Below, in pieces: positions 6,955 to 63,737 of a stretch of DNA of 64,000 nucleotides; positions within the stretch are counted from its first letter, which is position 1; every line of letters starts with the position of its first letter. The position numbers were made by a program, and so were the translations under genes. The stretch is from Dryococelus australis (Eukaryota > Arthropoda > Insecta > Phasmatodea > Phasmatidae), in NCBI GenBank assembly GCA_029891345.1, contig CM057003.1, forward strand, positions 10,234,209 to 10,298,208. Direction: 5' to 3'. Under the pieces are notes generated by a model that made no database searches, was not told the origin of the DNA, and saw nothing but the letters and a program-made list of their open reading frames with translations.

Positions 6955-7400
6955 TATGGTTCATTCACGGTTACTTCAGCTCTTTTCTGAAGCCCTGTTA
7001 AAGTTCTACTTCCAGGATATTCCTCCGCCTTGTGCAAACTAAGCTTAACTAATCCTGGAGAATTACACCAGAGGGACAACGCACCACATTCATGCGCACT
7101 AAGTGTAACAGTATTTTGTATAAGGACTATTTCTCACTAGGCGCTACCAACATACCTATTTTCTCCCTGATTTTTTTTCTTCAGATTATGTATAAATGAA
7201 GCATTGTAATATATAGATAAAATATGAATAACATTTCAATTTTACAAAAAAAAAAAAAAAAAGTAACTTTTATGATCACAAGTATAAAACGCTTGTGATA
7301 CAGGGCGTATTTTGGAAATAACTGTCTCCCCACGTCATACATGGGGAGATTTTGCTAAGGTTTGATTCAAAAAGGTCGAAGAAACCGTGAATGGACTATA
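6955..7400 (+). mobile_element. MITE family A, copy A1 (446 bp)
   Basis: The left end reads TATGGTTCATTCACGGTTAC and the right end reads GAAACCGTGAATGGACTATA, giving a terminal inverted repeat of about 20 bp with TA at the edges. The left head continues through CTCTTTTCTGAAGCCCTG, TTCTACTTCC and CCTCCGCCTTGTGCAAAC, a module shared with families B and E. It is non-coding. The interior matches A2 in the opposite orientation, A3, A4 and A5. Confidence 0.8.
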
Positions 7401-8377
7401 TAATATATTCGCGGTTTCTTCAAGCTATTTCAATCAAACCTTTAGGAAGAAAACACCCTATGTAGGAAGTGTTTGAGTAGAGGTCTATTGCAGATCTTGG
7501 CGAGACTCAGTAATTCAATTAAAATTCAACCAATTTCACGCTAAATTCAAACAAATTTCTAGCTCCCCGTCAAATTTTTCAAAGCGCAACGCAAAATCAA
7601 TCATATTTAGGGTCAATATTAAAATTGATTTTCAACCTGTGTTCACTCTTTGTGTGTGGTTCTTTAAAGACTCATTTTCAAGCTAACTCATCAAATTTTT
7701 CATGAAATTCCAAGAGTTTTCATACTTTTCTTGTGATTTTATTTCTGACCAATTGACTTGGCTTTATAAATAACGGTAAATATTTGCCTTATTGGTCATA
7801 ATTGTGGCCTCATTCACCCTGAAAATGGACCGCTGATAAAAAAGTGAGCAAAGAATGTTTTAAAAAAAAAGCGTGTAATTGAGATTGAAGATTTGGGTCA
7901 AATTATCTTGATTTTGGGAGTGAGATTGATGAGATGAATCATGTTTGTAGAAGAAGAGATTGAAAAATTGATGCTTGAAAGTGAGAAATTTGCGTGAAGT
8001 TAATTAAATTATTGCGCTGCGCCAAGATCTGCAATAGTCTTCCACTTGTTTGGTACTTTCCTAAATACTTCACGTATCACAAGCATTTTATACATGTTAT
8101 CATGGAAAAGTAACTTCATTTTGGTGAAATTCAACTTTTAGTTAGATTTTGTCTGTAAATTATAATATTTCATTTAGGCCTATAGCTAATACGAAAAAAG
8201 ACGGACAGAAAACTTGTGTAGGCAATGCCTAGTAAGAAATAATTCTTATGCAAAACATTATTACACTCCGTGAACACGAATGCGATGCGTTAGCCCTGTG
8301 GTGCAATTTTCCAAGCTTTGTTTGCATGAGGCGGAGGAACATCCTCGATAGTTGGCGGTAACTGAAAATGGAGTATA
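7401..8377 (-). mobile_element. MITE family A, copy A2, interrupted
   Basis: This is a reverse-orientation copy abutting A1 tail to tail at a TATATA junction. From its head (8377 going left) it reads the same blocks as A1: CCTCCGCCTCATGCAAAC, GCACCA, CATTCGTG, then CTTGTGATACG and AATCAAACC. It is split by element D (7485-8037). Removing D leaves about 424 bp, close to the 446 bp of A1. Confidence 0.75.
7485..8037. mobile_element. MITE D (553 bp) nested in A2
   Basis: A perfect 18-bp terminal inverted repeat, CTATTGCAGATCTTGGCG, at 7485-7502 pairs with its complement at 8020-8037. The interior is AT-rich and non-coding, with no similarity to the A, B, C or E heads. It interrupts A2, so it is the younger insertion. 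A clean target-site duplication was not identified. Confidence 0.75.
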
Positions 8378-8690
8378 TATGGCACTTTCATACTAACCTT
8401 CATGCGAGAGTATCTCGTGCATGGCGAGACGTAGAAATCATGGGGTGGAAAATGTCATGCAAGTCAGTTTTGCACGCAACTAATGACTCTATTTGTTGTT
8501 CTGTGCTATTCTGTACGGCCAAGGGAAACCATTTCTTTAATGCTATTTTGTGTTTACAGTAACACGGCATTGCTTTGATTCAAAGAGAACGTGGAGGAAG
8601 AGTTGCCTACCAATCAGGGCATGGCATTGCTACAACTGAACACGTAGTTTGCGATTTAACCAGAAACGATGGATACTGGAGCGATGCGCG

Positions 8691-8788
8691 GCGCGCCCAC
8701 ACGCACACACGCCCTCACGCCCACGCGCCCACATGGGCACCCACCCACCCACACACACACAGATATATATATATAGACACACACGCAT
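8691..8788. repeat. CA/CCCA-rich compound microsatellite with short TA tract
   Basis: Imperfect CACACG, CCCACG and CCCACCCA tracts grade into (CA)n, then (TA)5 and GACACACAC. It is low-complexity DNA without coding signal. Confidence 0.85.
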
Positions 8789-10932
8789 AATTAAAGTGGC
8801 AGATCATCTCAGCAGAGAAGATAGCTGTGCAAGGAGGAATCACGTGATAAATATTCATTGCGAAGAAAAATCTTGAAAATTTTGTTTTGGAAATGAAGAG
8901 GAGTTCAGATAGTGTTTTTCTGCAAGTTTTATCTGTGGACTCGTTTCGAAAAGGATTCGCCTGATATCCTCGCATGATAAATCCATTTTGCATCGTGTAA
9001 ACGCAGCTTCCTAATACGTCAATTGGCGTCCACAACATTTTGGAAGGGAAAAATAGAAAATCTTTGAAAAAGCAATACTAGATAATGTTCATTGCCAACT
9101 TTGTAAGAAAATATTTTAGCCATATTGATTCAACTATTTCGTATAATCTTTCACTCCACGGTGACACTTAAAAAAATTTCCGACCGAAAAAATTAAATAG
9201 CTGGGTAGAAATGCATCACTATGGTAAAATATGTGCTTCCAAGGAGAGTAATAACAATTACGTAAGATTTCCCTTAATTTTAGTTTTTCTGTACTGGTTT
9301 CCATAAAAGTGCAAACATAATTTACCCCTAATACGTTAATTTATGTCCCACACACTTGTGAGTGTGCGTATTGGATTCAAATTACAATAAGACTATTCTC
9401 ACTGCAGGTGACGCCCTTCCGTATAAAATACACCTATTAAAATATATCTGAGAAACTGAAAAGATTTTTGTTTGCCTTATTCCTTAAATTATTTCATTTG
9501 TGTGTAATTTTTTAGTTGTACCTTCACTGACTAGATTTCGGCATCATTTAATTATTAGATAAACATTTTAATGTCTCAAATATCGTCGAAAGTATTTGAC
9601 TTGCATTGTTTATGACTTATACTGTTTATACTGAAGTTGTAGTAAATACCCGAAGAAATTACGATTAAAAGTAGACAATTTTTTTTACCTGACCACAGTT
9701 GTGCAGGAGAATACGTGTTCTTCTAAATTACTCACGAGAAGAGTCATGTATTTTAAATAACACCGTTCACTAATTTCATATATAAAATTTGTTATACAAC
9801 TTTCCTTTTTCATGTGTCAATTATACGGCAACATTGCAATAATACAAAGAACGAAGATATCCTGAAAACTTCGATATCAGTACATCGGGAACAGTTTTTG
9901 TAATCTTAATGATTGAATAATGTTGATGTAAGCCGCTTCTTGTTTGGGACCCTATCTTGACCGGCTTACAGACAATTTTCCAAATGTCGACGTGACATCA
10001 GGGTGAGGAAATGGCACCTCACAGCAGCAATTACAGACTCCCGAATAATAAATATGGTTATCTTTTAAGTTAATATTCTCTGACCACAGTATTGGGAATG
10101 CTGTGCAATTTCCTCCTGATTCCACTGATACGTGCTATCCCGTTAGGGACATTTCCATTAACTCGTTCCAGAACAGATAAAATGAGTCACAACGATAGCT
10201 GCTCTATAAAACAATTACCGAAGCGTATTTACATCAACAAACATACTTCCGATTAAAAAAAAAACACCGGCGAAGTTTTAGATCGCAGAGGGATGGAGAA
10301 TTTTTCATCTCGAACAGCAAGTTTACCACAGATTTGGCAGTGAAGCTGGGAAGAGGACAGTCCAGTGTGATATTTTAGTTTATTTCTGTGTTACTCATCG
10401 AACCAAAATTACGTGCATTAAAAGATGCACTTTGCTAGAGGCTGTCCGCCGTAAAATAAGGACTTCTGAGATTCCTGCCTCGCTTCTACGTTTCATCGTA
10501 TCCATACTCATCCACAACATGTAACATTAGCATCACCGTGTGCCTTTCATCTAGAGTATGTGCTTTGACGAAAGACGCTGTGGAATTATAGCTAATATTG
10601 TATAGATAACTATGACGGAATATTTTACTCTATATCTGGGGAAAAAAATTAAATAATTTAATTTCCCGTGCAGTTCACAAACGGAATATTTAATATAACT
10701 TCAATGTAGAGATTTTTTAAAATAATTTTCTCCAAACGATTTAGACAAGACTGTCACTGTTTCCGGTAAAATATGTGAAGTAATAGGCAGGAAGTGTTTC
10801 CAAACATTGATTTAAAAATTCTGGATTAACAACAAACCAGCAATGCAATACAACATACAATTAAATACAATATCTTAAGGGAATTGTATTATAAGAAAAA
10901 CACACTCCGAGTACGATAACAAATGTTGTGAC
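8789..10932. other. AT-rich DNA, no gene seen
   Basis: About 2.1 kb without recognised genes or interspersed repeats. The only local structure noted is a short hairpin, GTAAGCCG (9928-9935) with CGGCTTAC (9961-9968). Confidence 0.55.
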
Positions 10933-13229
10933 CGATACGCCGAGACGTCAGCTGTGCCCTGGGAGAAACTAGCAGCACCCAGAGAACACCCTCTCTTTCA
11001 ATGTATCAGCACCACTCTTCCCCTTCATCACTCCTAATGTACACGAGAACAGGACCTTAGAATCAGGATTGCAAGCAATCCTTTGAAACCTGAATACGAT
11101 ACGCCGAGACGTCAGCTGTGCCCTGGGAGAAACTAGCAGCACCCAGAGAACACACCCTCTCTTTCACTGTATCAGCACCACTCTTCCCCTTCATCACTCC
11201 TAATGTACACGAGAACAGGACCTTGGAATCAGGATTACGAGCAGTCCTTTGAAACCTGAATACGATACGCCGAGACGTCAGCTGTGCCTTGGGAGAAACT
11301 AGCAGCACCCAGAGAACACCCTCTCTTTCACTGTATCAGCACCACTCTTCCCCTTCATCACTCCTAATGTAAACGAGAACAGGACCTTGGAATCAGGATT
11401 ACAAGCAATCCTTTGAAACCTGAATACGATACGCCGAGACGTCATCTGTGCCCTGGGAGAAACTAGCAGCACACAGAGAACACCCTCTCTTTCACTGTAT
11501 CAGCACCACTCTTCCCCTTCATCACTCCTAATGTACACGAGAACAGGACCTTGGAATCAGGATTACGAGCAGTCCTTTGAAACCTGAATACGATACGCCG
11601 AGACGTTAGCTGTGCCTTGGGAGAAACTAGCAGCACCCAGAGAACACCCTCTCTTTCAATGTATCAGCACCACTCTTCCCCTTCATCACTCCTAATGTAC
11701 ACGAGAACAGGACCTTGAAATCAGGATTACAAGCAATCCTTTGAAACCTGAATACGATACGCCGAGACGTCAGCTGTGCCTTGGGAGAAACTAGCAGCAC
11801 CCAGAGAACACCCTCTCTTTCACTGTATCAGCACCACTCTTCCCCTTCATCACTCCTAATGTACACGAGAACAGGACCTTGGAATCAGGATTACGAGCAG
11901 TCCTTTGAAACCTGAATACGATACGCCGAGACGTTAGCTGTGCCTTGGGAGAAACTAGCAGCACCCAGAGAACACCCTCTCTTTCAATGTATCAGCACCA
12001 CTCTTCCCCTTCATCACTCCTAATGTACACGAGAACAGGACCTTGAAATCAGGATTACAAGCAATCCTTTGAAACCTGAATACGATACGCCGAGACGTCA
12101 GCTGTGCCTTGGGAGAAACTAGCAGCACCCAGAGAACACCCTCTCTTTCACTGTATCAGCACCACTCTTCCCCTTCATCACTCCTAATGTACACGAGAAC
12201 AGGACCTTGGAATCAGGATTACGAGCAGTCCTTTGAAACCTGAATACGATACGCCGAGACGTTAGCTGTGCCTTGGGAGAAACTAGCAGCACCCAGAGAA
12301 CACCCTCTCTTTCAATGTATCAGCACCACTCTTCCCCTTCATCACTCCTAATGTACACGAGAACAGGACCTTGGAATCAGGATTACGAGCAGTCCTTTGA
12401 AACCTGAATACGATACGCCGAGACGTCAGCTGTGCCTTGGGAGAAACTAGCAGCACCCAGAGAACACCCTCTCTTTCACTGTATCAGCACCACTCTTCCC
12501 CTTCATCACTCCTAATGTAAACGAGAACAGGACCTTGGAATCAGGATTACAAGCAATCCTTTGAAACCTGAATACGATACGCCGAGACGTCAGCTGTGCC
12601 TTGGGAGAAACTAGCAGCACCCAGAGAACACCCTCTCTTTCACTGTATCAGCACCACTCTTCCCCTTCATCACTCCTAATGTACACGAGAACAGGACCTT
12701 GGAATCAGGATTACGAGCAGTCCTTTGAAACCTGAATACGATACGCCGAGACGTTAGCTGTGATTTGGGAGAAACTAGCAGCACCCAGAGAACACCCTCT
12801 CTTTCACTGTATCAGAACCACTCTTCCCCTTCATCACTTCTAATGTAAACTAGAACGGACCTTGGAATCAGGATTACAAGCAATCCTTTGAAACCTGAAT
12901 ACGATACGCCGAGACGTCATCTGTGCCCTGGGAGAAACTAGCAGCACCCAGAGAACACCCTCTCTTTCACTGTATCAGCACCACTCTTCCCCTTCATCAC
13001 TCCTAATGTAAACGAGAACAGGACCTTGGAATCAGGATTACAAGCAATCCTTTGAAACCTGAATACGATACGCCGAGACGTCAGCTGTGCCCTGGGAGAA
13101 ACTAGCAGCACCCAGAGAACACCCTCTCTTTCAATGTATCAGCACCACTCTTCCCCTTCATCACTCCTAATGTACACGAGAACAGGACCTTGGAATCAGG
13201 ATTACAAGCAATCCTTTGAAACCTGAATG
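10933..13229. repeat. 164-bp satellite array, 14 units
   Basis: Units start at 10933, 11097, 11263, 11427, 11591, 11755, 11919, 12083, 12247, 12411, 12575, 12739, 12902 and 13066. The period is 164 bp, with one 166-bp and one 163-bp unit. Each starts CGATACGCCGAGACGT and ends AATCCTTTGAAACCTGAATA or the AGTCC form. Two monomer types, GGATTACAAGCAATCC and GGATTACGAGCAGTCC, alternate through much of the array, implying a 328-bp dimeric higher-order unit. The first form is nearly self-complementary. The period is not a multiple of three and no long frame persists. Confidence 0.95.
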
Positions 13230-17650: not shown

Positions 17651-18441
17651 CATTTATCATTACTTCACGCCAAATCTTAGGTCACATATATCGGTTGTTT
17701 ACATTAGAAGAGGCGTCATGTAAGTCACTAACTCGTACTGAACAGAATAACTAATAACAAAAAACCGAATTTTATGTTAAACCTTTCACCAGTTCTTTAA
17801 ATATTTCATTCCCTGTTTCCACGATCGTGGACATGTTGCGAATGAGGGATATTTATGACCAGTACTGTACACATAAATAAATAAGTGCTCAGTGTTTTGG
17901 GTATTGTCCTTGTAAGTAATCTAATTTGCCAGTTTTTCTGCTTTTCTCGTTTGTGAATGGTCAATAATAATGCCAAACACGCAACACGTTTACTAGATGA
18001 AATAAACACGCTGGACATAAGTACGGAGCAAACCAAGACATCTCACGTTAGCAACGTTCGAGCTTGAAAATTAATTCGGAGCCGGGCGGGTCAAGTATAC
18101 TATATATGTGCAGCAAAATTTGTTTTAACAGTGTACAGTTCACAAAAGCTACGTTACCCGCCCTACCCTCCAAAAAATAGTGTAGGCCCTATTTCACAAA
18201 ACATGATATAACCACTTATCAATTTTCATGTGTTAGATCAACATCTAACGTGCAGTGATTCCTGAACATTGGTTTCTCTGCGTCGCCAATCATCCTCCAA
18301 AATGACCATTGCATATAGACACAATTAAAAAGCATCATATTTTCATGTAACGCTAAATGATATGGCCACGTGACTGCACCTACGCTAACAAGCTCTAACA
18401 GACTGCTGTAATGTCCTTGGGAATGGAGGCGTGTAAGTACG

Positions 18442-18870
18442 TAAAGGCCGTTCACGATAAAGTGAGCACTTTTTAAATCAACCTAAGGAAAAAAATCGCT
18501 GCCCCTGCATACATATATCTTAATGGGCGCACCGAGTGACATGCATCCAGTGAAGTTGGTAGCGATTGAGGAAAAACAGTCCCATAATTTAACGTCGAAT
18601 AAAAAGTGTTAGGTAACCATTTCTGATAATTTAAATTATTTTTGTCGTTTTCTGTTTTTTTTTTCTAATGCATTGAAGTGTGAAAATAAGCATATTTGTA
18701 AAATACTAACTTTTCAAATAATTTCATAGTTTCACTTGACCGACGCACGAATAAAGTGATAGACCCACGTCAATGTAAATTTCACATGATGCGGAAGAAT
18801 ACACAACGTGCGTACAAGTAGATCTTAAGCAGGGCTTTCAAAAGTGTTCATTTTACCGTGAACAGCCTAT
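18442..18870 (+). mobile_element. MITE family B, copy B1 (429 bp)
   Basis: It starts TAAAGGCCGTTCACGATAAAG and ends with the complementary TTTTACCGTGAACAGCCTAT. The right end carries the shared head read in reverse: AAGTAGATCTTAAGCAGGGC, CTTTCAAAAGTG and GCGGAAGAATAC. It aligns end to end with B2 and B4. It is non-coding. Confidence 0.85.
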
Positions 18871-18884
18871 GGGCTGATATTAAC

Positions 18885-22060: not shown

Positions 22061-22711
22061 TTGGAGGGTGACGCAGGGATTTTTGTTTACCAGAGTGCCG
22101 GCTCCTACAGCGCTTTCTCGCTGCTTTTCAAAAATAAAAGCCATAACTTACTTAAAACTTACTTTCCTTGATGATAAAAACTGACTTCGTTATAACATTT
22201 TCAGTGAAACAATGCCCATTACAAAGTATGACATTATTTTGTCTTAACTTTTGTCAAAACACTCGCTTAAAATTGAAAAATATTCTACAACCCCTAAAAT
22301 AATTTAACGAGGGCAAAATACCTCAACATTTTTGTGCATTGTACTTGTTACTCAGTAAACATCATAATTTAAGTCTACCTTGTAAAGAGTATAAACAAAC
22401 TGCAGGAACTATTATTAATATTCAAAACCAAAAGGAAAGCAATGTTTAATGCCTAACAAATTTAAGGCAACCAATGTTCTACGAGCTGTGACAATTGAAG
22501 AAATGTAGCAAAAGTTGAAGTCGTTAAATACCTTGACGTAGTATTGTGATTATAAAAATAAAATGAAATAAAATAGGTTGTCTCCGAAATAAAAGCTGAC
22601 TGAGATACGAATGTATAACAGTATATAGAAATTTGAAAGATACTTGTAGCAAAAATGAAACCGATAAATGGCCAACACCGAGAATGTAAGGTAGGAAGAG
22701 TCAAAAACCAT
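22061..22711. other. AT-rich DNA, nothing recognised
   Basis: No supported features. Confidence 0.5.
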
Positions 22712-23141
22712 TAAAGGCTGTTCACTATAAAGAGAGCACTTTAGAAATTAACCTTAGAAAAAAGTCACTTCCCTTGCATGCATATATTTTAATGGCCGCA
22801 CTGAGTGACATTCGCCCAGTAAAGTTGGTAACGATGGATGGAAAGTAGTTCCATATCTTAACGTCGAATAAAAAGTGTTAGGTAACCAATTGTGGTGACT
22901 TAAAATTATTTATTTAGCTTTCTGTTTTTTTTTTTAATGCACCGAAGTGTCAAAATTAAGAAATTTGTGAAGCATTTACTTTCTTAATAATTTCACAGTT
23001 TCATTTTACCGACGGATGAATAAAGTGATGAGGCCAATAGAAATGGTAATTTTACATGTGGCGGAGGAATACACAACGTGTATACAAGTAGATCTTAAGC
23101 AGGGCTTTCAAAAGTGCTCATTTTACCGTGAACAGCCTATA
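22712..23141 (+). mobile_element. MITE family B, copy B2 (430 bp)
   Basis: It runs from TAAAGGCTGTTCACTATAAAG to TTTACCGTGAACAGCCTATA. Interior landmarks shared with B1, B4 and B6 are GAGTGACATTCG, AAAGTTGGTAACGATGG, AACGTCGAATAAAAAGTG and TTAGGTAACC. The head module GTAGATCTTAAGCAGGGCTT is at the right end. The plus-strand 61-codon frame is internal and not conserved as an ORF in the other copies. Confidence 0.88.
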
Positions 23142-26722: not shown

Positions 26723-27150
26723 TATAGTACACTCAAGGTTACTTCCAACTTTTCTGAAGCCCCGCTAACGTTATATTGGGCTACACCTCCGCCTCATGCA
26801 AACAAAGATTAACTGAGACTAGAAAATTACACCAAAGGAACAGCATTCCTCATTAGTGCGCACTGAGTTTAATAATAGTCTGCAAAATAACTATTTAATA
26901 CTAGGCCTTACTAACGCACATCTATTATTTCTGTTTCCATCCATTCAAATGTTAAATAAAATAGCATAATTTATAGATTAAATGTACGTAAACGTTCAAT
27001 TTAACCGAACATGCGGTAATTTTATGTCAAGAGAAAGTGCAATACGCTTGTGATACATGAGATATTTAGGAAACAGCAAAACACGTAATGAATGGGGCGA
27101 TTTTTCAAAAGTTTGAAACCGAATATGTGAAGATACCGAGAAACTGTTTA
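26723..27150 (+). mobile_element. MITE family A, copy A3
   Basis: The head reads TATAGTACACTCAAGGTTAC, CTTTTCTGAAGCCCCGC and CACCTCCGCCTCATGCAAAC, then follows A1 and A2 through GAAAATTACACC, GCGCACTGAG and CGCTTGTGATACATG. The right end is eroded. Similarity persists to about 27150 (GGGGCGATTTTT, then ACCGAGAAAC). It is non-coding. Confidence 0.7.
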
Positions 27151-31560: not shown

Positions 31561-33286
31561 ATCTCCGCTGAGAGGGGAAAAAAATTGCTAGGAATGGAAA
31601 ATTCGTACGCCATAACTTTCCTTCCCTGGAAATTCAACAACGTCATTGTCCGTCCCTATCCTGGTAATTACCGCAGCTTGTTATGCTTGGCATGATCCTA
31701 CTGATAACTCTTAGCCTGGTTTTAGTAAAAAATTACTTGCCAGTCGCAAGAGAAACAAATACGTTGTTATATTGACAAATTCAATTTCAGATTTATTTAT
31801 ATGTATGCATAAATGCACACACATATACAAACATTTACACACTCGTGTATGCATACATACGTACAAATACGACCAGACTAATCCTGTAATTAAATTAAAA
31901 ACACCTTGAGGTTGTTTATTATTCGAGATAAAATACGAAAAATAATACGATCTATGACGTTTTTTGATGATTTGTCCAAATAGAGGTACAAGCTAATTAA
32001 ATTAGAAATTTTTAAAAAGTCAAGACCACTTAAAATTTAAAAATCCTGCAAACTAATCTTTAACAGAATATATATCTGTAAATAATTTGGGGATATATCA
32101 TCTCACTTTCAATGGATAATTAAAGCCCTAACTCCCTCTTTCACGTTGCATAACTAGTAGGCAAAACGTGCACACTTTAAAATATTTCAGTCACTTTCCC
32201 AAGTACCATTCACCTAGGGTCTCGTTAAATACACCTACTCTGATAATGTTTCAAAATTATTAATGTACATCATAAAACCTGATATCAGCCTCTGGTTACA
32301 TAATTTCGCACAGAAAACACAGTATCACCAATTTCTTGATGCAAGGAGATGGTATTTACCACAAAAGTTCCCCGTTTATATATTTCAGTTAAATAAACCT
32401 ATGTCTAAAATTTTAATTGATATTAAGTACATTACAATTATATTGATACAAATTATGATATGAAATCTCCATGTGTAAGTACACATATTGATGGTTTCCC
32501 GGAAACCATCTTACCGTGCTGGGAAGTTTAACGATAAAAAATTCGCATTACCCTACTTTATGAAGTTGAACACGTGCCTTGAAGTAAGTTTATTTCACTA
32601 TAGAAACATACGTAATGGAAAGTATGTCCTTCGCGAACAGGTTTTAAACTAGTGAACAGAATTTCACCAAACTCGGTTCACATCTTCTTTGCAGTGTAAC
32701 TTGCATATCTACAAAGACGCCTGCTGAATTAATGCAACGACAAGGTAAGATTATCGTAGTCATTATTCTATAGATCAAATGGAATTTATGTCTGTGGAAA
32801 GCCTACTTGGCAGTAGTTCATATTTATACAACTCTTCTTTGCGGTGACAAATAATGTGTTCCAGCTAAGAAATAATTTTTAAAAATCTCAAACGGAAAAC
32901 AACATACCGCATACGTGCATTGAACAGACAAAGAAAAATAAATATTTTATACATAGGATTTAAATGTGTTTCTAACGTTACATTTCTGAAAACCTTAACA
33001 TGGGAGTAAGCAAAGTTATCTTTATAAATAACAAAAAAATCTAAATGGAATAATATTTTACGAGATCACTATCTCTTACTAGTAATTTCCGACATTCATT
33101 TTTGCTCTCTGTTCTTAACTTATAACGATTATTAAGTAAACATCATAATTTATTGACGAAATATATGCCAAAGTATCAAACCAAATATGAAAGTACGTTC
33201 GTTGAAACGTTAGTAGAAAACGCTTATTGTATATGATTACTTAAGAAACGTACGTACATGTAATGTCATACGTGGACTGAATTTCA
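31561..33286. other. AT-rich DNA, nothing recognised
   Basis: The only local structure noted is the near-perfect hairpin GATGGTTTCCCGGAAACCATC-like palindrome at 32490-32510. No gene or interspersed repeat was supported. Confidence 0.5.
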
Positions 33287-33289
33287 AAA

Positions 33290-33518
33290 GTGGTCTTGAT
33301 AGTCGATAAGGGGGAAGCGAGGTGAGTGTGGAGCAGCGCTGGAATGCTAGGGCGGGGGGAAACGGAAGATACCCGAGAAAACCCGCCGACCAGCGGTATC
33401 GTCCGTTACGATTCCCACGTGCAAATATCAGGGGAGGGCGGGGGACTCCGCTGGGGAGCGAACCCGATTCGCTTTGGTGGGAAGAGAGTAGTCTAACCAT
33501 TACGCCACCGCGGCCCCT
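33290..33518 (-). mobile_element. tRNA-derived SINE (copy 2)
   Basis: The minus strand reads GGCCGCGGTGGCGTAATGG then TTAGACTA (A box, 33491-33514), ATCGGGTTCGCTC (B box, 33456-33468), then the SINE body with CGGGTTTTCTCGGG and GCTGCTCCACACTCA. It matches copies at 55033 and 63738. The extra segment GGGAATCGTAACGGACGATACC is shared with the 63738 copy, while the 55033 copy lacks it. Confidence 0.85.
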
Positions 33519-34208: not shown

Positions 34209-34597
34209 ATAGTCTATAAATAACATTTTTTTAAAAACACCTCATGGATGACTTGTTTAGTTGTTTCGTAAATGTGTCATATGTCACAAGTGTTTTATAA
34301 TTCTGGTAACAAAAAATTATCTTATTAATTGTAATGGAACTTTTACTTATATTTTATCTATACATTACAATATTTCATTTCTAAGTAACACGAATAAAGA
34401 CAAAGAGAAAATAGTTGTGTTGGCCTGGTAAGAAATATTTCTTATGCAAAATACTATTACACTGAGTGCGCACGAATGCGGTACGTTAGCATATGGTGTA
34501 CTTTTCTAAACTTTGTGTAAATGAGCGGAGGGATATTCTGGAAGTAGAAGTTCGGCAGGGCTTCAGAAAAGTTGGAAGTGTTCGTAAATGGACTAAA
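34209..34597 (-). mobile_element. MITE family A, copy A4
   Basis: This is the reverse orientation. The right-hand end carries the head (GAAGTAGAAGTTCGGCAGGG, CTTCAGAAAAGTTGG, GTAAATGGACTA). Going left it shows GAGCGGAGGGATA, TGCGCACGAATGCGG, TACTATTACACT and ACAAGTGTTTTATA, as in A1, A2 and A5. The left end TATAGTCTATAAATAAC is worn. Confidence 0.75.
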
Positions 34598-37143: not shown

Positions 37144-38993
37144 TATAGTCCATTCCCCACTGGAAGCAACTTTCTCGGAGCCCTGCTAAATATCTACTTG
37201 CAGGCCCGCTTCGTATCCTTCCGCCAAATGTAAACACACATTGCCATGTGACTGTCATGTATCATCTGTCAAAATCAATGTTTACATGCCAATGTGTGTA
37301 CATGTGTTCGTATACTTTCGCTACACCTAAACATAAACATTGAAATGTGACATTTACTTTTATACCTGTCAAATGTGTTGTTTACTGTTTACAGAGTTTC
37401 AAATAATTCTGTCGTAGGTCTACTTCAAAAATCATTTCGTACAAATATTCACAGTTTGGGCCTATTACATTATTTAGGTCAGCTTTATGACATTTTAAAA
37501 ATGCCTGAATTGACGATAATTCTTACGGTTATGTTACATTAACATATTTGTTTTCCACGACATAGCACATTACATGTAATGCACGTTAATATTTTGCCAC
37601 GACTGTGTTTAACACTGTTCAACTGAGGGGGTATTGCTTTAAAAGAACGTCTTCAGTTCCAGTAACGAAGGAATAATCAGTCCAACGGAAAAGAGACATT
37701 AAAATCAAGCACGCAACTCATGTCGCTCATTTTTAGTCATACAAACTTACAATCTAGCAGTGAACATGCACACAAATAAGCCTACCGTAATTTTTATTCC
37801 TCTCATATTTATATGTATTGCTACTTCCTGTGTATTATTAGGTTTATTGAAATTTTAAGTGGGGCTGGCCTTGGTAATTTTGTTGGAATTGGTGGTAAAT
37901 CCAATTACATGACTGTGTTTCAAACACCCAGGCCATAGGTACAAAGTTGGGATAAATAAACAGACGTGGATGTAAATAAATAACTTCGTCATAAAAACAG
38001 TTCACATCAAGTATTTGAAGTCATGCACACACACACAGATTCAGCGTAATGATCACTACGCAGCGACGCCACACTATTTTACACACAGCGGTTAACAAAA
38101 GACACCGTAATAATATATTTATTACTGCCGCGGAATCACATATTTATCACAACATCGTAAATTGCTTAGGTAGGTTTAAAAAACACAATGTCTACACACG
38201 TGATGTGGTAATTTGAAGTATTTTTTGGAGTAAGTATAATTTACGCTTCGTTTGGTAAAAAAGCAACACGCCATGTCATGGCTCGCCAAGTCTGCCAACT
38301 TCACTTTGTTTCTGCCCCGCCGTCATATCTTAATATATTAAAATAAGTATTCAAACATTAAAATCTCTTTTCGGTTGTAAATTACACATTCAAAAATCAT
38401 TATTTTGCTGTAATAAGTATGAAATAAGAAATATGCTTGAAAACATGTATAATATAAGTGTTTACTAGCGAAGTGAAACTTCCCGAGTATGAAAGAGACA
38501 AAAAAAAAACAGAGCGACAAGCCTCGCTCAACAGACACTTGCTTTCTCGCTCGATAAAACAACACCATGCCATTACGGCCTACTCGCGGTATTTTCCGCT
38601 GTTATGCTAAACTGTAAAAATTAGTTATATTGCCATCGGGGCTACCTAAATATTCCAATATTTCGATAGGCACCATTTAATTTACAAATAGTATACTAAA
38701 AAACGAGATTAAAATAATATTTTAACTGTGAACTATTTCTTACCGGTCGTTGCCAACACGTCGCTGCACTCGCTGTTGTTAATTCATATTTAAAAAGAAA
38801 TAAATATTACAAGTTATAGAAGATATTAAGGCAAAGTTTAATTTATTCAATAATACAGTACTCTAAAGTTAACCACGGTGTTATATATTTGTGGAATACC
38901 GGTTATTGAAAAAAACAAATTGACATGTTATGCCTAGAGTGTTTTTTCAAAGGTTGATTTTTATAAATCGCTTCCACTCGGGAATGGACTATA
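37144..38993. mobile_element. Non-coding TIR element E1, complete (1850 bp)
   Basis: The left end TATAGTCCATTCCCCACTGG and the right end CCACTCGGGAATGGACTATA form terminal inverted repeats. The flanks are the two halves of one 41-bp tandem array, which fixes both ends and is consistent with a TA target duplication. The left terminus continues with the shared head (GGAGCCCTGCTAAATATC, TACTTGCAGG, CCTTCCGCC). No transposase frame exists. The interior (TGACATTTACTTTTATACC, ATTTTGCCACGACTGTG, CAACATCGTAAATTGC) matches E2 along most of its length. Confidence 0.85.
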
Positions 38994-45789: not shown

Positions 45790-46114
45790 AATATACTAAT
45801 GAGCATTTTTGAAATCCCTGCTTAAGATCTACTTGTATTCCCATTGTAGATTCTTCCGCCTTATGTTAAATTAACTCTGACATGGGCCTCGTAGCTTTAT
45901 CCATGCGTCGGTCGAGTGAAACTGTGAAATTATTAGAAAAGTAAATAATGCACAGATCTGCTAATGCATCAAAAAATATAAAGCGAAATAAATTATTTAA
46001 GTACTGAGTGCATGTTACTCAGTGAGCCCGTTAAAATATATGCAGGTAGGAGCAGTGACTTTTTTTTTCTAAGGTTCATTTCTAAAGTGCTCACTTTATC
46101 GTGAACAGCGTTTA
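45790..46114 (-). mobile_element. MITE family B, copy B3, internally deleted
   Basis: Reverse orientation: the head is at the left (GAGCATTTTTGAAATCCCTG, CTTAAGATCTACTTGTAT, TTCTTCCGCCTTATG) and the other terminus at the right (AAAGTGCTCACTTTATCGTG, AACAGCG). It is about 100 bp shorter than B1 and B2, having lost the GTTGGTAACGATGG to TTAGGTAACC region. Confidence 0.8.
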
Positions 46115-46454
46115 GATTGCAATAATAGTGGTGTGTGGTATTTAAACATAACAGTTGAAACTAGCATCATGATATCCTATTTAAGCTCCCCCAATTAATA
46201 ATCACGTAATTAGGTATTGTATGATCATCATGTTCGATAAACCCCATCATTTACTGTTGAGCTCTACCTTATAATTCACTCATTATTCAGCTACGTCATC
46301 AGCCCCTTCCACGTATGAAATTGACCATAAGACAATTCATTAGTCCGTAAGAGCGATTTCTTTAAGTATCGGCGTACCTTTCCGTAGAAATTTTCCCTAC
46401 GCCAGTCTCTCTCATAAGAAATCTGGGTTTCTTCACAACCTGAATAGACTACAT
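46115..46454. other. Spacer between B3 and B4, nothing recognised
   Basis: AT-rich, with no supported feature. Confidence 0.5.
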
Positions 46455-46878
46455 TAAAAGTTGTTCACAATAAAGTGAGCACTCTAGAAATGAACCTTAG
46501 AAAATTTCACTGCCCCAGTCAGCATACATTTTAACGGGCGCACTGAGTGACATTCGACCAGTAAAGTTGGTAACGATGTCTGGAAAGTAGTTCCATATTT
46601 TAAAGTAGAATAAAAATGTGTTAGGTAACCATTTGTGATAACTAATTATTTCTTTCGCTTTCCGTTTATTTTTAATGCACCAAATTGTAAAAATGAGCAG
46701 ATTTGTAAAGTATATACTTTTCTATGAATTCCACAGTTTCACGCAAGCGACGCATGAATAAAGCGATGAGGCCCATGGCAATGTTAACTTTACATAAGGC
46801 GGAGGAATACACAACGTGCATACAAGTACCTGGATCATTAGCAAGGCTAAGTGCTCATTTTACCGTGAGCAGCCTATA
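46455..46878 (+). mobile_element. MITE family B, copy B4 (about 424 bp)
   Basis: It runs from TAAAAGTTGTTCACAATAAAG to TTTACCGTGAGCAGCCTATA. It shares GTGACATTCGACCAGTAAAG, AAGTAGTTCCATATTTTAAAG and AAGGCGGAGGAATACACAAC with the other B copies. The segment at the head end (ACCTGGATCATTAGCAAGGC) has diverged from the usual TAGATCTTAAGCAGGGC. Confidence 0.85.
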
Positions 46879-47419: not shown

Positions 47420-47713
47420 AGTAGTTACAGAATTTGCAGAACTTGAAAAACGTGGTCGAACAACCGTAATAAATTTTACTACAAATTTTTAATTTTGTAT
47501 CAACTTATATTTAGTATATAAAAGCTTGGAGCAATATAGAACGTATACCTCATTTGGGCAACAGTAGTAAGAACATGTCTTGCCTAAGGTTCTTAACTTT
47601 TCCCAACAAGCTTTTATATACTAAATATAATTGATACAAAAATATTAATTTGTAGTAAAGTTTAGTATGGCTGTTCGACCACGACTTAAAGTTCTACAAA
47701 TTCTGTAACTACT
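47420..47713. repeat. Inverted repeat with about 110-bp arms
   Basis: The left arm (47420-47529) starts AGTAGTTACAGAATTTGCAG and ends TATATAAAAGCTTGG. The right arm (47607-47713) starts CAAGCTTTTATATACTAAAT and ends ACAAATTCTGTAACTACT. The spacer is about 77 bp. Weaker complementarity may continue outward. It is a probable foldback MITE with no coding content, unrelated to F1. Confidence 0.85.
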
Positions 47714-48933: not shown

Positions 48934-50193
48934 TATAGTCCATTCACGGTTACTTAGCACTTTTCTAAAGCCCTGTTTGAGTTCTACTTCCGGTCACCGA
49001 TCACGTGTCCTTCTACTACATAAACACAACCATGTGTCGTTCTTAACTGTCAAATGCTTTGTTTACTGTTTTCAGCTGTTCAAAGAATTTTGTCATATTT
49101 CAAAAACTATTTAGTATGAATGTCATCAATTTAGGCCTATAACCTTATTTAGCTCAGCTTTATGACTTTAATACAATGTCTATATTGACGATAGTTCTTA
49201 CGGTTAATATTTTACATGATTGACATATTTGTTATACACGGCATAGCATATTACGTAAGCGTTAATATTTTGCCGCGACTGTGTTTAACCCTGTCAAAAC
49301 TGCGGGGAAAATAACTGTAGTATTTAACATCGTGTTATTGATATCCGTTGGATTATTTCGTTGAAAGGATGGCCTCAGTTGGAATAATAATTGAAACGAA
49401 GGCACAACCAGTCTAACGAAAAGACGCGGTGAATTCAAGCACGCAACTCGTGTCGCTTATTTTCTGTACGTAGCAGCGACAAACTTAAAAGAATGTGTTA
49501 AACACACGCACAAATAGCATTACCGTAACTTTTATTCCGCTCGTATTTCTATTTTCTAGGTTTATTTCATTATTTATTTAAATTTATCTGGCTGGGCTTA
49601 ATGTTTTGTTGGGGCTGTGGCAAACGTTCAAATCTCAGAAATGAAAGCACTTTACACAGTTGTGTTTGAAACACATACGGTAAGGTTACAACGTTGTGAT
49701 AAATAAATAGACGTGTTTTTCATAATAGAAACAATTCACGGTTATAACGTGCAAATTTCGGACGTCTGATGTTTTATCATCACATACACACTGGTCCAAG
49801 GTAACGTAATGACTACAATATTATTCCGCCCACACAGCGGGCACGACGCACGTCACGGTATATTTATTCCTGTCGTAGAAGAACATATTCATCACAACAT
49901 CGTAAATTGCCTGGGCAGGGTTAAAAAAAAACATAACGTGTACAAACTTGACGCTTCGTTCTGAAACACGCCTTGTCACGTCGCCACGCCACTGCTAGTC
50001 GCCACTTCTGCCAACTTCGGATTTGTAACCATCCCGCCATAACATCTAAATAATTATTCAAAAAATATAAACTCGTTTCAGTTGTAAATTACACATTCAA
50101 AAAAATCATTACTTTTCCTGTAACAAGTATGAAATATGCTAAAATTGAAAAAACCTGTATGATTTCTGCTTCTACTAGCGGTACGAAACTTCC

Positions 50194-50283
<90 letters not shown>

Positions 50284-50610
50284 CGCGACAAGCTCCGCTC
50301 CGGCTGTTGAAGTTTCTTTCTCGAACGAAAAAAAAACCATGTCACTAGGACCCTACGCATGGTAATCTGCGCTGATATTTTTAACTTTGACAATTAAATA
50401 TGTTTCCTTCAGTGCTACCTAAAAATTTTAATATATCAATTGGCAATGTTTTATTTACAAATAGCATACAAAAAACTAGGCTAAAACAATATTTTATACC
50501 ATGAACTACTTCTTAATAGCCGTTGCTGACACATCGCTACTAAGTGTTTTTAATTCGTATTTAATACGAAATAAATGCACAAAGTTTATATGGACAACTG
50601 TAACACAAAC
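48934..50610. mobile_element. TIR element E2, right end eroded
   Basis: The left terminus TATAGTCCATTCACGGTTAC continues with AGCACTTTTCTAAAGCCCTG and TTCTACTTCC, the shared head. The interior follows E1 in order: TTTGTTTACTGTTTTCAG, ATTTTGCCGCGACTGTG, ACGCAACTCGTGTCGC, CAACATCGTAAATTGC, CTACTAGCGGTACGAAAC. Similarity continues to about 50600 (TTATAGCCGTTGC-like block, then AAATAAATGCAC). The right TIR was not found. It contains the microsatellite cassette absent from E1. Confidence 0.75.
50196..50312. repeat. Microsatellite cassette in E2: (TA)n, (GA)n, unique head
   Basis: (TA)n at 50196-50252 and (GA)n at 50253-50281 are followed by GCGCGACAAGCTCCGC then TCCGGCTGTTGAAG. It is the reverse complement, in the same order, of the cassette at 26588-26716. 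At the equivalent place E1 has only a short GAGTATGAAAGAGAC and a partial GAGCGACAAGCCTCGC. Confidence 0.85.
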
Positions 50611-51591: not shown

Positions 51592-51594
51592 TTG

Positions 51595-51800: not shown

Positions 51801-52222
51801 CCATGAGACGTCCCCTCTTACAGTTCGAGAATTTGGGAGAAAAATGGTCTGAGAAAATTCTGTCTCCCCCCACCCCTTTCTCATCAAAACCTCGCTGGTT
51901 TCGTCAGACGGGCAAGAATCACACTTTGTTTATGGTAGCTATAAAATTGGGGTTGTGTTCGTGACTGGGAAAGAGAGGGTGTTTGGAGAGGGGAGGGGGG
52001 GGGAGATACAGATGAATTTCTCGGAGGCACACGTTTACGCTCGCATGTTCGAGGCAATCTTAGCTTCTTAGGCGGAAGGGAGAGAAGGGACGGCTGGGAG
52101 GCGTTTAGACTGTAAAATGCAGCGATGCCTGGCGTCTCGACGTCTCGGCGCCTGCCGTGGCGCAACATCTCCAGACCCACGACGGGACGGCCTCGCGAGC
52201 AAGCCTGGTCCACACGTGTTTA
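51801..52222. other. GC-rich segment
   Basis: A GC- and purine-rich stretch with GGGGAGGGGGGGGGAG near 51990. The minus-strand 109-codon frame has no recognised domain. It may be part of the same regulatory region as 51595-51800. Confidence 0.35.
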
Positions 52223-53243
52223 CAGACAAGCTGAGAACTTCCGGAAGCCTTGCTTGAGATCTACCTGCGTGCGCATTGTGTATTCGTCCTCTCGTACGTC
52301 AAATTGACATTTCCACGAGCCTGCTCACTTAATTCTTGCGTCGGCCAAGTGAAACCGTTTATAGGCTGTTCACGGTAAAGTGAACATTTTTAGGCCCTAG
52401 TTACTTTTTTTTATTTCAGCCATTTTTTATACTTTTGACTACTTTTTAAAATAAATACAGTGTGCACATTTCACCGCACTCAGAAGTTAACACCTAAGAC
52501 TAAAATTAAATATATTTACTGACTATTATTACAAATAAGAAGGCTTTCAAAAGTGCTCACTTTACCATGAATAGGCTGTAAGTAATTATTATACCAGTTA
52601 AGGCTGTTGCCTGTTTTGAAAGCAATAAGAATTTGGTATAGGAAAATATACGTTAACGAAATTCGATTTTTTGAAGTCAATTTCGATGACATTTACTTGA
52701 AATAAAAACTAAGTGGGAGAAATTATACTCTAGTTTGAATCTAGGCAAATATAACAATTTGTTTTTCACTCTTTCCATTTAATTATAAATATTTCTAATC
52801 TTTCCAGGAAACCGTCTATACGTAAATATTATAAAAGGCTTCGATAGCATGGAACCGCGTATTTTTCTGCTCAAAAAAGTCCCGGGTTGTATAGATCTAT
52901 CTTTAACAGGGACGCCAAAAACCCAATTTCATTAACATGTATTTCCCTATTCCAAAGTGTGGCTGCTTTCAAACCAGACGAGAGCCTTAATAGTTCACAA
53001 ATCTGCTAATTCTTACATTTATAAGCATTTAAAAAGCAAAGAGCAAAATAAATCATTTCAGTACTAACAAATGTTTACTTAACACCTTTAATTCAACATT
53101 AAGTCGAGTAACTACTCTCGCTCCGTTGTTATAATCTTTACTGAGCGCATTATATACAGGATGTTCGTTTACATGCAGGCGAGGGCGGTGACATTCTGCA
53201 AAAGTTTATTTCAAAAGCGCTCACTTAACCCTTAAGAGCGAAT
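52223..53243 (-). mobile_element. MITE family B, copy B5, split by insertions
   Basis: Reverse orientation. The head is at the left (GAGAACTTCCGGAAGCCTTG, CTTGAGATCTACCTGCG, TATTCGTCCTCTCGTACG) through CGTCGGCCAAGTGAAACCG, ending at 52359. C2 then intervenes, followed by about 400 bp of unassigned DNA. Family B sequence resumes near 52985 (ACAAATCTGCTAATTC, AGAGCAAAATAAATCATTTC) and ends at AAAAGCGCTCACTTAACCC. This gives a clear insertion order. Confidence 0.7.
52360..52580. mobile_element. MITE family C, copy C2 (221 bp), nested in B5
   Basis: TATAGGCTGTTCACGGTAAAG at the left pairs with CTCACTTTACCATGAATAGG at the right. The body resembles C3 (GTGCACATTTCACCGCACTC, AAGTTAACACCTAAGAC). Confidence 0.85.
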
Positions 53244-54995: not shown

Positions 54996-55032
54996 GGATT
55001 ATGCGGATTTATGAAGTTTTCTTACTGAACAC

Positions 55033-55265
55033 GAAGCCGCGGTGGTGTAGTGGTTAAGCTACTGGCCACCCCCTTAGGTGAACCGGGTTCAATTCCCGGC
55101 GGGGTCACTCCTGGATTTTCGCATGTGGCGGGTTTTCTCGGGGATCTCCGTTTCCTTCCACCCTTGCATTCCGGCGCTGCTCCATACTCAGATCACTCCA
55201 TCCTCATCGGTCGGCTCTCAAGACCTCGATGTTGAAAGCATCCCAAATCTCTCCACTATTACAAA
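55033..55265 (+). mobile_element. tRNA-derived SINE (copy 1, best preserved head)
   Basis: The head begins GCCGCGG and carries TGGTGTAGTGGTTAAGC (A box, from 55043) and GGGTTCAATTCCC (B box, 55085-55097) with a paired T arm. The acceptor halves do not pair, so it is not a functional tRNA. The body follows: TTTTCGCATGTGGCG, GGGTTTTCTCGGGGATCTCC (55130-55149), GCGCTGCTCCATACTCA and GGCTCTCAAGACCTCGATG. The internal pol III promoter could still be active. Confidence 0.88.
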
Positions 55266-59381: not shown

Positions 59382-59429
<48 letters not shown>

Positions 59430-59955
59430 TACGTACACAAAACAAGGATATTATTGACATGCCTTCTTTCCACAAATAGTAACGTAGCTCTACATGAAAA
59501 TAAATCTCCGGAAGAAGCAGCAAAACATAAAAATTACTCATAATTGCAAATAACAATGTCACGGATTGCCGTGGTTCAATTATTTTACATTTCCATCAGT
59601 CTAGTTATATAATATGAGGTGTAACGTATATGCACGTAAATTGTTGAAATACATTTTTTTCGCGCATTTTAAAAAGTTACTTGAAGAACGTACGGTACAA
59701 AAATACTACGCACAAATGAGAAGCTGAACAAAATATCTCATAAAATAAAATTTTTTAATTATTTTGAAAAATATTTTTAAACTATGATTTGTACCTCAGC
59801 TACCATTCACTATCAATCCAAGATTGTTTTTCAAGCAGTTTGCTATATGGATATTATCAATTTCAAAAGATGAATCGTGTAACAGACATATAAATAAATA
59901 GACAATGCGTTAAAATCATAAGCTAGGAACATATCTCGACAAGAAAATCGTCAGA
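57625..59955. other. AT-rich DNA with a (GA)n microsatellite
   Basis: (GA)n lies at 59383-59424, with short (TA) and (TG) tracts near 58870 and 59105. A small GC-rich patch is at 59180-59290. No gene was supported. Confidence 0.5.
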
Positions 59956-60358
59956 ATAGTCTATTCGCGGTGTTTTCACATTTTTAAAATCAAACCCTTT
60001 AAATAATAACCCATGTCCACATATAACGTGTTTCATAGTTTTCTAGACATGTCATGTGTCACATGCTTTTTATAATTCTGTTAACATAAACGTACCTTAT
60101 TTTTGGTTAAACAAAATTCTTACTTATTTATATTTATATAAAAATTATAATATTTTATTCGTAAATATTATTAATATAAACAGAGATAATATAGATGTAT
60201 TGGTGATGCCTAATACGAAATTGTACTATTACAAAATATTATTAAACTGAAATTTTATAACTTATTTAAGCTTTATTTGCATGAGTTGAAGGAATAAACT
60301 GAAAGTAGAACTTCAGTAAGGCTTCAGAAAATTTGGGAGTTATAATGAATGGACTATA
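59956..60358 (-). mobile_element. MITE family A, copy A5 (403 bp)
   Basis: ATAGTCTATTCGCGGTGTTT at the left and GTTATAATGAATGGACTATA at the right form the terminal inverted repeat. The head (AAAGTAGAACTTCAGTAAGG, CTTCAGAAAATTTGG) is on the right. Going left, TTTGCATGAGTTGAAGG and ATTACAAAATATT follow the family order. It is non-coding. Confidence 0.8.
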
Positions 60359-60858
60359 AAAGAGGTAATTATAATAAATATGGCGCCTCGAGAATGAGGA
60401 AGACACTGCCAAATAAATGTTAAGATAACGTAAAACAAAATAAAATATTTTGTCTTGTAAATACATATTTTTAAATACCTGCGTTTAAATTCCGTCTGAC
60501 CTAATGGAGCAATTTGTAGTAACACTTTAACTCATCGACTTATCTATATCACTAAACTGACACTGATCGTTGTTTCAAAAGCAGAAAATTCTTCTGAATA
60601 TTTTAAAGCATATCTCTGAATATGCTGCCCGTCTCACTCGACACACGAGCACTGGCCTACGATGATTAATCTCCTTTTTACTCACAGTAAATACACAACC
60701 ATAATCGTATTACGTTGTGGCGGTCACGACAAAATATATCAATCGAAATATACTAGACTTATTCGCCATTAGCGTAATATAATTAAAATTTCCCAAAAAA
60801 AATATTCGGAAAAAATTTCTGTTAACCCATTTTAAAAGAAAAACATTGCCAAGTAAAT

Positions 60859-61614
60859 AAAGGAACGTACAGTACTTGTGTGAGCGGCATTCACAACAAT
60901 AAAGGAACGTACAGTACTTGTGTGAGCGATATTCACTACAATAAAGGAACGTACAGTACTTGTGTGAGCGGTATTCACTACAATAAAGGAACGTACAGTA
61001 CTTGTGTGAACGGTATTCACTACAATAAAGGAACGTACAGTACTTGTGTGAGCGGTATTCACTACAATAAAGGAACGTACAGTACTTGTGTGAGCGGTAT
61101 TCACTACAATAAAGGAACGTACAGTACTTGTGTGAGCGGTATTCACTACAATAAAGGAACGTACAGTACTTGTGTGAGCGGTATTCACTACAATAAAGGA
61201 ACGTACAGTACTTGTGTGAGCGGTATTCACTACAATAAAGGAACGTACAGTACTTGTGTGAGCGGTATTCACTACAATAAAGGAACGTACAGTACTTGTG
61301 TGAGCGGTATTCACTACAGTAAAGGAACGTACAGTACTTGTGTGAGCGGTATTCACTACAATAAAGGAACGTACAGTACTTGTGTGAACGGTATTCACTA
61401 CAATAGCGGAACGTACAGTACTTGTGTGAACGGTATTCACTACAATAAAGGAACGTACAGTACTTGTGTGAGCGGTATTCACTACAATAAAGGAACGTAC
61501 AGTACTTGTGTGAACGGTATTCACTACAATAAAGGAACGTACAGTACATGTGTGAACGGTATTCACTACAATAAAGGAACGTACAGTACTTGTGTGAACG
61601 GTATTCACTACAAT
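60859..61614. repeat. 42-bp minisatellite, exactly 18 units
   Basis: The unit AAAGGAACGTACAGTACTTG then TGTGAGCGGTATTCACTACAAT repeats over 756 bp without length variation and with few substitutions (AGCGG/AACGG is the main variant). GTACAGTAC near the centre is close to palindromic. Because 42 is divisible by three, one plus-strand frame and two minus-strand frames remain open for 257-333 codons, repeating for example GTYSTCVSGIHYNK. These are not treated as genes. Confidence 0.95.
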
Positions 61615-62639: not shown

Positions 62640-62995
62640 AAAGTTACAAAGGGAAGTTCCGCTGCGTGCGAAAACAAGAGCGAAATCACACACGCCGTTG
62701 TAATAGCCGGCCATTGCTGCAACCAAGAGGCTTGGCCCAATTTTCCGCTTCCACGCCGACGAAGTTTCAATTTCACGGCGGTAAAATTACGCCGCTGCCA
62801 TAAATTCGACCTCCCGGCACGCATAAATAACAAGCCCCGGTCGTATATTAATAACGCTTTATCGAGGGAGGGTGAGTAAGGGGCGGGGATGTTAACTCTA
62901 CAGTTTGAGTGGTTGTGAAAGGGGGGAGGGGGAGAACACGCATGGGATCCATGGCAGGGATGCTGCACAACACGTGTCACGAGGCACTGTCTGTC
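62640..62995. other. GC-rich segment with AT-site clusters
   Basis: It contains TTTCACGGCGGTAAAATTAC then GCCGCTGCCATAAATTCG, CATAAATAACAAGCC and TATTAATAACGC, so homeodomain-like AT sites sit within CpG-rich sequence. A GGGGGGAGGGGGAG run follows. It could be a regulatory element; there is no core promoter or exon evidence. Confidence 0.3.
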
Positions 62996-63009
62996 CCTGT
63001 GACAGTCCC

Positions 63010-63628
63010 TAAATGCTGTTCACTGTTTAGTGAGCACTTTTGAAATCGACCTTAGGAAAAAAAGTCACTCTCCCTACCTGCATATATTTTAAAGGGCGCT
63101 CTGAGTGACATGCGTCTATAGGATGTTCACAGTAAACTGAGAAATTTTTAAGACCCTTCCAAATTTTTCTTTTAAACAAGTTTTTATATTTAAGCCAATT
63201 TTTTAGTATCAGCATTGTCACGTGACTAATAAAATATAGTGTATACTTTCACCACTTTCGCAAGTTAATGTCTGAGTCTGCAGTAAAACATATTTATTAG
63301 TGGTTAATGCCTATTGGGAGGACCTTAAAAAGTGCTCACTTTATCATGAATAGCCTATTGTAAATTTGGTAACAATGGATGGGAAGTAGTTTCGTATCTT
63401 AACGTCGAATGAAAAGTGCTAGGTAACCGTTTCTGATCATCTAAATAATTCCTTTCGCTTTCTGTTTTTTTTTAATTACATTGAAGTGTAAAAATGAGTA
63501 GATTTGTAAACAATTTAGTTTTCTAAAAGTTTCACAATTCCACTTGACCGACGCATGAACAATGTGATGAGGCCCATGACAATGCTAATCCTACATAAGG
63601 CGGAGGAATACAAAACGTGCTTACAAGT
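63010..63628 (+). mobile_element. MITE family B, copy B6, interrupted by C3 and cut by C4
   Basis: It begins TAAATGCTGTTCACTGTTTAG and follows family B to GAGTGACATGCGTC. C3 (63117-63358) then interrupts, and family B resumes with GTAAATTTGGTAACAATGG through GGCGGAGGAATACAAAACG. The final head segment is missing because C4 starts at 63629. Confidence 0.85.
63117..63358. mobile_element. MITE family C, copy C3 (about 242 bp), nested in B6
   Basis: TATAGGATGTTCACAGTAAAC at the left pairs with GCTCACTTTATCATGAATAG at the right. The interior resembles C1 and C2 (TTTCACCACTTTCGCAAGTT, AATGTCTGAGTCTGCAG). Confidence 0.85.
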
Positions 63629-63737
63629 GTAGGCTGTTCACGGTAAAGTGAGCACTTTTTAAGGCCCTTCTGAATTTTTCCTTTCATCCAATTTCCACCT
63701 TTCTGCTGCTTTTTAATATAAACGTTGCAATGCGACA
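63629..63737 (+). mobile_element. MITE family C, copy C4, truncated
   Basis: It starts GTAGGCTGTTCACGGTAAAG and runs through TTTTTAAGGCCCTTC and TTTTTAATATAAACG, then stops where SINE sequence begins. Its right terminus is not present in the window. Confidence 0.75.

Follow-up and report, generated by a model that had tools for sequence, protein, structure and literature searches.

MITE families with common ends and diverse interiors are already known. According to PMC1562414, the P-element MITEs of Anopheles gambiae form several families of 205-2450 bp whose subterminal regions match a master element, with one hybrid family among them, and internal deletion with ectopic repair has been proposed for these elements. 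For rice Stowaway, PMC3660474 describes orphan MITEs that have little similarity to a transposase source and are moved by a related transposase, and reports that subterminal and internal sequence affect activity. The PHIS superfamily, as set out in PMC4482050, comprises ISL2EU, Pangu, NuwaI and NuwaII, with target duplications of AT, ANT, CWG and TNA. The coral CMITE (PMC2872659) was also set beside the present lineage for comparison.

We analyzed a 64,000-bp stretch of the Dryococelus australis genome (the window), and searched the 3,415,067,245-bp assembly of 646 contigs. Four families in the window, A, B, C and E (Table 1), resemble the Anopheles P MITEs in having common subterminal regions and varied bodies across families (PMC1562414); P masters are known, whereas here none was found in 39 transposase loci. 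Stowaway differs in that its link to a mariner-like transposase is established in print (PMC3660474), and none is established here. We consider it probable that all four families, A, B, C and E, belong as non-autonomous (MITE-type) elements to a single cut-and-paste lineage of DNA transposons, shaped by internal deletion and interior replacement, with a TA-targeting transposase as the candidate enzyme. An earlier note on this DNA had counted five A, six B, four C and two E copies. All were found, along with an additional A/E-like fragment and a diverged seventh B copy, but C4 is incomplete at the window end and E2 has no tail. The drawn footprints of A, B, C, E and the A/E fragment cover 9,459 of the 64,000 bases.

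Table 1. Elements and repeats mapped in the window (position 1 is its first letter).
Feature	Position	Strand	Description	Basis
A1	6955..7400	+	complete A, head left, tail right	fullA profile, E 5.8e-121 (profile member)
A2	7399..8397	-	decayed head; split by unrelated 571-bp element (7476-8046); adjoins A1 with a single TA in common	alignments, profile
A3	26723..27149	+		A profile
A4	34222..34597	-		A profile
A5	59955..60358	-		A profile
A/E-like fragment	33041..33290	+	interior and tail, head unrecognised	fullA profile, E 3.8e-14
B1	18440..18871	-	head at high end	B profile
B2	22710..23141	-		B profile
B3	46453..46878	-		B profile
B4	45798..46116	+	without head tip and part of interior	B profile
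B5	63008..63628	-	split by C3 (63117-63359), head cut by C4	B profile
B6	52206..53240	+	split by C2 (52360-52580) and a TTAA-flanked element (52598-52990)	fullB profile, E 6.3e-36 and 1.8e-21 (outside the profile-building set)
B7	10437..10818	+	diverged B relative	fullB profile positions 2-401, E 8.7e-12
C1	24315..24555	+	complete, head-like at both ends	
C2	52360..52580	+	within B6	
C3	63117..63359	+	within B5	one-TA empty site is the best fit
C4	63628..63737	+	single end, within B5; cut by SINE-like repeat	
E1	37144..38993	+	complete, 1850 bp, apparently non-coding, within a 41-bp tandem array	
E2	48934..50600	+	E-type, head intact, tail unrecognised	about 71-75% identity to E consensus in two blocks
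Element nested in A2	7476-8046		571 bp, TIR AGTrGArGwCTATTGCAGATCTTGGCG, 6-bp direct repeat TGTTTG	
Element nested in B6	52598-52990		393 bp (both TTAA copies counted), TIR GGCTsTyGyCTGkTTTGAAAGC, TTAA duplication	one-TTAA join fits best, 50 vs 36 and 40
Imperfect palindrome	3549-4998		1450 bp, possibly a foldback element	68.7% self-complementary (BLAST)
Imperfect palindrome	47343-47790		448 bp	74% self-complementary
Satellite-like array	10933-13228		164-bp unit, 14 copies	
Array	5160-6084		93-bp unit, 9.9 copies	
Array	60856-61614		42-bp unit, 18.1 copies	
SINE-like repeat	33282-33428, 55127-55257, 63777-63944		three stretches related to each other; C4 is interrupted by one of them	

The earlier note had described one head module carried by the four families. 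Our alignment reproduced the layout it gave, in which a 4-base block (TCCA in A and E, GCTG in B and C) and an ACTTTT block are followed by AAGCCCTG or AGGCCCTG. The aligned heads of A, B and E run through TATAG, the 4-base block, TTCACGGT, the ACTTTT block, AAGCCCTGCT, TCTACTT and CCTCCGCC, and thus continue through TCTACTT and a CCTCCGCC-like block as had been noted. Pairwise identities were discarded because random pairs scored 0.72. To keep the comparison independent of the tip, the first 17 bp were removed and per-family profiles were scored against the window and 51 controls (the reversed window and 50 Markov sequences). With the A head profile, E1, E2, B1, B2, B3 and B4 scored above the best control (11.8 bits); B5 and B6 lay below it, and B5, B6 and B7 were all left at or under the controls, which counts against a single lineage. 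The A+E head profile placed B1, B2, B3, B4 and B6 above its control of 10.8. With the B head profile, E1, E2, A1, A3, C1b, C2b and C4 exceeded the control of 9.7, and A2, A4 and A5 fell under it, again counting against one lineage. The C profile raised the heads of B1, B2 and B4 and the B1 tail above its control of 9.8 but lifted none of the A and E heads that far, a further count against. These results imply that C has mainly the first ~45 bp in common with the other families, B being the closest. Profile matches with a family left out support the relation across families. The similarity thus persists above the best of 51 controls with the tip removed, so that the shared head is real and extends well beyond the TIR; likeness limited to a few TIR bases was the outcome that the earlier note had named as refuting it.

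The tails of A, E and B also correspond, each consisting of the tip and then a segment that finishes near AACCTTAG-AAAA. When the tip was left out, the six B tails took the first six places among the non-A/E matches of the A+E tail profile, at 4.6 to 8.6 bits; all six were below the control maximum of 10.0, and the lowest tied with the A2 head. The B tail profile gave 7.6 bits for the A1 tail and 7.3 for the E1 tail versus a control maximum of 12.2, several C ends ranking higher. No single B-tail score rose above control, which counts against one lineage; tail homology accordingly rests on position and ranking, which indicate a tail module common to A, B and E at low similarity. The common part is accordingly described as a pair of ends, a head with its corresponding tail, and not as the free-standing head module first proposed. 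In the reading that we favor, the ~100-bp head and the ~50-60-bp tail of A, B and E, which lie under the tip TAGnnnnTTCACGGT, presumably hold transposase binding sites. One transposase, or close relatives, would move all four families, and the enzyme would be a member of a TA-targeting family. The earlier idea of one machinery acting on common ends is still the best reading of the tip, the head, the corresponding tail and the TA duplication in E and C, with the amendment that the ends, not the head alone, form the unit.

The bodies had been called otherwise unrelated, which proved wrong for A and E. Positions 148-426 of the A profile are collinear with the final 280 bp of E1, terminus included (E 9.2e-17), and positions 1-85 align with the E1 head; the ~60 bp between them (86-147) are unmatched in E. 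All 25 E copies retrieved from the genome gave an A-profile match in this distal part (E 2.4e-18 to 5.9e-11), and at least 21 of their 25 heads matched the B profile. These copies were picked by similarity to E1, so the match is a feature of the family and not 25 independent tests. Unrelated bodies for A and E are ruled out by the collinear match in E1 and in the fetched copies. The alignments identify A as an E-like element that retains the head and the terminal 280 bp but has lost ~1.5 kb of interior.

A possible but less likely explanation is that swapping of interiors predominates: the ends would stay in place while interiors are replaced by interrupted gap repair from another template. 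The interiors of B and C match neither A nor E (the B interior profile found no match in either), and the ~60 bp in mid-A would also fit. Interrupted gap repair has been proposed for the Anopheles P-element MITEs (PMC1562414). Against this, the A-E body difference is mostly the ~1.5-kb loss, so swapping is unneeded there, and searches short of genome-wide found no donor sequence for a B or C interior. The swapping suggested by the earlier note may apply to B and C, for whose interiors no other match was detected, and is superfluous for A versus E. In the single-lineage reading, B and C would come either from internal deletion accompanied by replacement of the interior or from a longer relative as yet unseen.

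A genome search with E1 gave 45 matches and 25 loci, with 40 of 11,223 candidates scored. The 25 copies are 1842-1915 bp long, above the usual MITE size, and retain TA at the left end in 21 cases and at the right end in 21. Conservation along the 1905-bp consensus is even, at 0.89-0.96 per 100 bp. No open stretch in it exceeds 95 aa, and the six that were scanned gave only sub-threshold Pfam matches (best E 0.019), none to a transposase. By inspection, E1 and E2 showed no codon periodicity, and 9 of 35 gaps were multiples of three. The absence of coding capacity expected of a MITE was thus seen in E, the family that this separate scan covered; the evidence supports, short of proof, that E is non-coding. 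A decayed autonomous element was rejected as an explanation of E on account of the even conservation, the 95-aa longest stretch and the lack of periodicity.

P elements duplicate 8 bp of target, versus TA here, and Stowaway duplicates TA. When E1 was removed with one TA kept, the joined flanks gave an ungapped 67-column match to the 41-bp array at 80.6% identity; joins with no TA, one TA and TATA scored 56, 63 and 61, a small margin. At another locus (L065), a C copy lies in a B copy, and its one-TA joined flanks align ungapped to B1, B2 and B3. For C3 in B5, one TA was again best (116 vs 109 and 109). C2 in B6 scored 48, 48 and 45 and has 4 extra bases, a misfit to simple TA duplication that counts against it. 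These alignments show TA duplication on insertion of E1 and of C copies. Different duplications among the families had been listed as a check on common origin; TA agrees wherever an empty site measured it (E and C). The TA duplication of Tc1/mariner elements was thus found at the E1 and C empty sites, and not the TWA of PIF/Harbinger. Nor do they show the AT of ISL2EU, the one-TA joins being ungapped; with an AT duplication, two bases would be left over in the same alignments. Among arthropods, ATon of Aedes aegypti is likewise an abundant non-autonomous group with TIRs and a dinucleotide target, but ATons insert at AT (PMC3422177) and the empty sites here fit TA.

TA is preceded by C in 17 of the 25 E insertions (background C before TA 0.15) and followed by G in 18, and no longer direct repeat is evident. 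At 33 other TA-preceded ends, G stands before TA 12 times and C 11 times. The preference for C-TA-G is strong in E, and the other ends show a general C-or-G preference only, which counts against a single lineage. A palindromic target with fixed flanking bases is also a feature of PHIS elements, NuwaII C-TNA-G being comparable to C-TA-G of E, but the duplications reported in PMC4482050 do not include TA, and the tips are absent at 4 of 4 DDE_Tnp_4 loci inspected. Three of the four C copies in the window are nested in B; with TA sites taken at random, p is about 0.0004, the question having been chosen post hoc. Outside it, 1 of 15 near-full C copies was in B and 6 of 15 represent one insertion by their flanks, and a preference of C for B as a target was dropped. 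The same-flank C copies are at six Tc1-gene loci (L015 338-575, L022 328-566, L027 15-253, L029 31-268, L034 34-271 and L035 2901-3138), and their shared flanks suggest that this insertion was amplified together with a host repeat.

The stronger C-TA-G preference of E, relative to the mixed other ends, could also point to two sister transposase lineages, one for A/E (TCCA) and one for B/C (GCTG), with homologous heads and machineries that no longer cross-react. Beside the tip, A1 and E1 have a TCCA-like block at each end; in B1 and B2 this block is GCTG-like, again at each end. A and E also have interior sequence in common that B does not. However, intermediate blocks (GCTA, ACTA, TCTA, TCTG) occur genome-wide and suggest a continuum, and head homology spans ~90 bp across the TCCA and GCTG groups. 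We regard this division as rather unlikely.

The earlier note had stated that no transposase is present. None was found with Pfam in the 40 of 124 open stretches (>=75 aa) scanned, a scope to which the statement should be confined; these stretches yielded no recognised gene, and an Rfam search of the window gave no RNA family at gathering thresholds. The search that it had advised, for an autonomous element with the same termini, was run genome-wide on a small share of the candidates. We inspected 30 Tc1-type (DDE_3) loci (150 scored of 14,198 candidates), 4 DDE_Tnp_4 loci (150 scored of 4,158) and 5 mariner loci (four returned plus L074; 144 matches from 720 candidates). None of the 39 transposase loci had TATAG tips as its own termini within the fetched flanks, which counts against our reading. 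The same tips were seen at 0 of 30 Tc1-type and 0 of 5 mariner loci, with flanks of just 1.5 kb for 34 of these 35. The genome contains many DDE_Tnp_4 genes, and 0 of the 4 inspected (of 4,158 candidates) lay inside an element with these tips.

A pair of tip-like motifs (<=2 mismatches) spanned the transposase at 7 of the 39 loci. At L015, L035 and L071, one of the motifs ends a nested C copy and its partner resembles neither head nor tail; at L020, L067 and L069, both motifs lack such resemblance (at E<=0.01). L070 is a B copy with a nested inverted mariner pair, the motif at 1934 lying within mariner coding sequence. At L024, a B head and a B tail flank a Tc1 gene, but because the B sequence on its two sides joins up without a break (profile 4-361 and 357-428) and the Tc1's own tips lie inside, the Tc1 is nested. 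A 5.3-kb end pair at C1:3310046-3315322 (L065) proved to be two separate elements. Where transposase loci had recognisable tips of their own, these differed (CAGTCGAATCACATTATTATGACC at several Tc1 loci, CTAGTTTCACACACAACG at L067).

Two other observations were made at these loci. L070 (1086-3016) and L074 (847-2784) contain mariner transposase sequence with an inverted repeat of part of it; the arrangement is the same at both loci, which are 86% identical over 1.9 kb, and a third place has paired matches at similar spacing. Near the DDE_Tnp_4 gene of L066 there is a YqaJ domain; YqaJ with DDE_Tnp_4 is the ISL2EU gene pair (PMC4482050).

This lineage was not seen described in the literature searched, and a text search with a piece of the tip returned unrelated papers only. 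It is improbable, though conceivable, that the ends belong to an undescribed TA-targeting transposase group with two-part head/tail recognition and C-TA-G preference, distinct from the genome's Tc1 elements, whose tips differ. Its masters might be rare, very diverged or extinct, leaving at least 125,000 ends.

Our preferred reading, one lineage of non-autonomous families, agrees with the abundance of the ends. TTCACGGT occurs 9 times in the 64-kb window versus 1.81 expected (100 shuffles, largest 5), and TATAGnnnnTTCACGGT with <=3 mismatches 42 times versus 18.8 (largest shuffle 28). Genome-wide, exact TATAGnnnnTTCACGGT was counted 125,819 times (62,988 forward, 62,831 reverse) versus 111 for the reversed pattern (61 and 50). 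The high copy number typical of MITEs is thus seen in the exact ends, and short length, TIRs and fixed termini in the paired tips of A (~0.4 kb), B (~0.43 kb) and C (~0.24 kb). No prokaryote genome matched the patterns searched, and viral contigs contained a single exact 17-mer, apparently by chance, and no match to longer patterns. Convergence or chance limited to the short TIR could draw on that viral 17-mer and on the frequency of the tip with 3 mismatches in shuffles, but is contradicted by the tip-removed profiles and by a genome-wide excess of more than 1000-fold, and can be dismissed for practical purposes.

Seventeen copies in 64 kb had been called dense. The window has 5 exact ends versus a genome mean of 2.36 per 64 kb. 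Ends with <=1 mismatch number 12 in the window, 12 in 100,077 bases at Tc1 loci, a density inflated by the single C insertion that six of these loci share, and 11 in 74,633 bases of E flanks. The window is thus moderately raised, at ~1.3 to 2 times background, but not exceptional.

Given the printed precedents of Anopheles P and rice Stowaway, we regard this lineage as large in scale yet ordinary, one more member of an element type already known. It matters as a very abundant instance: entire end modules, beyond a short TIR, can still be recognised in families whose bodies differ, and the small family A is tied to a 1.9-kb, apparently non-coding relative, E. The transposase, if in hand, would permit a direct test of which subterminal parts matter.
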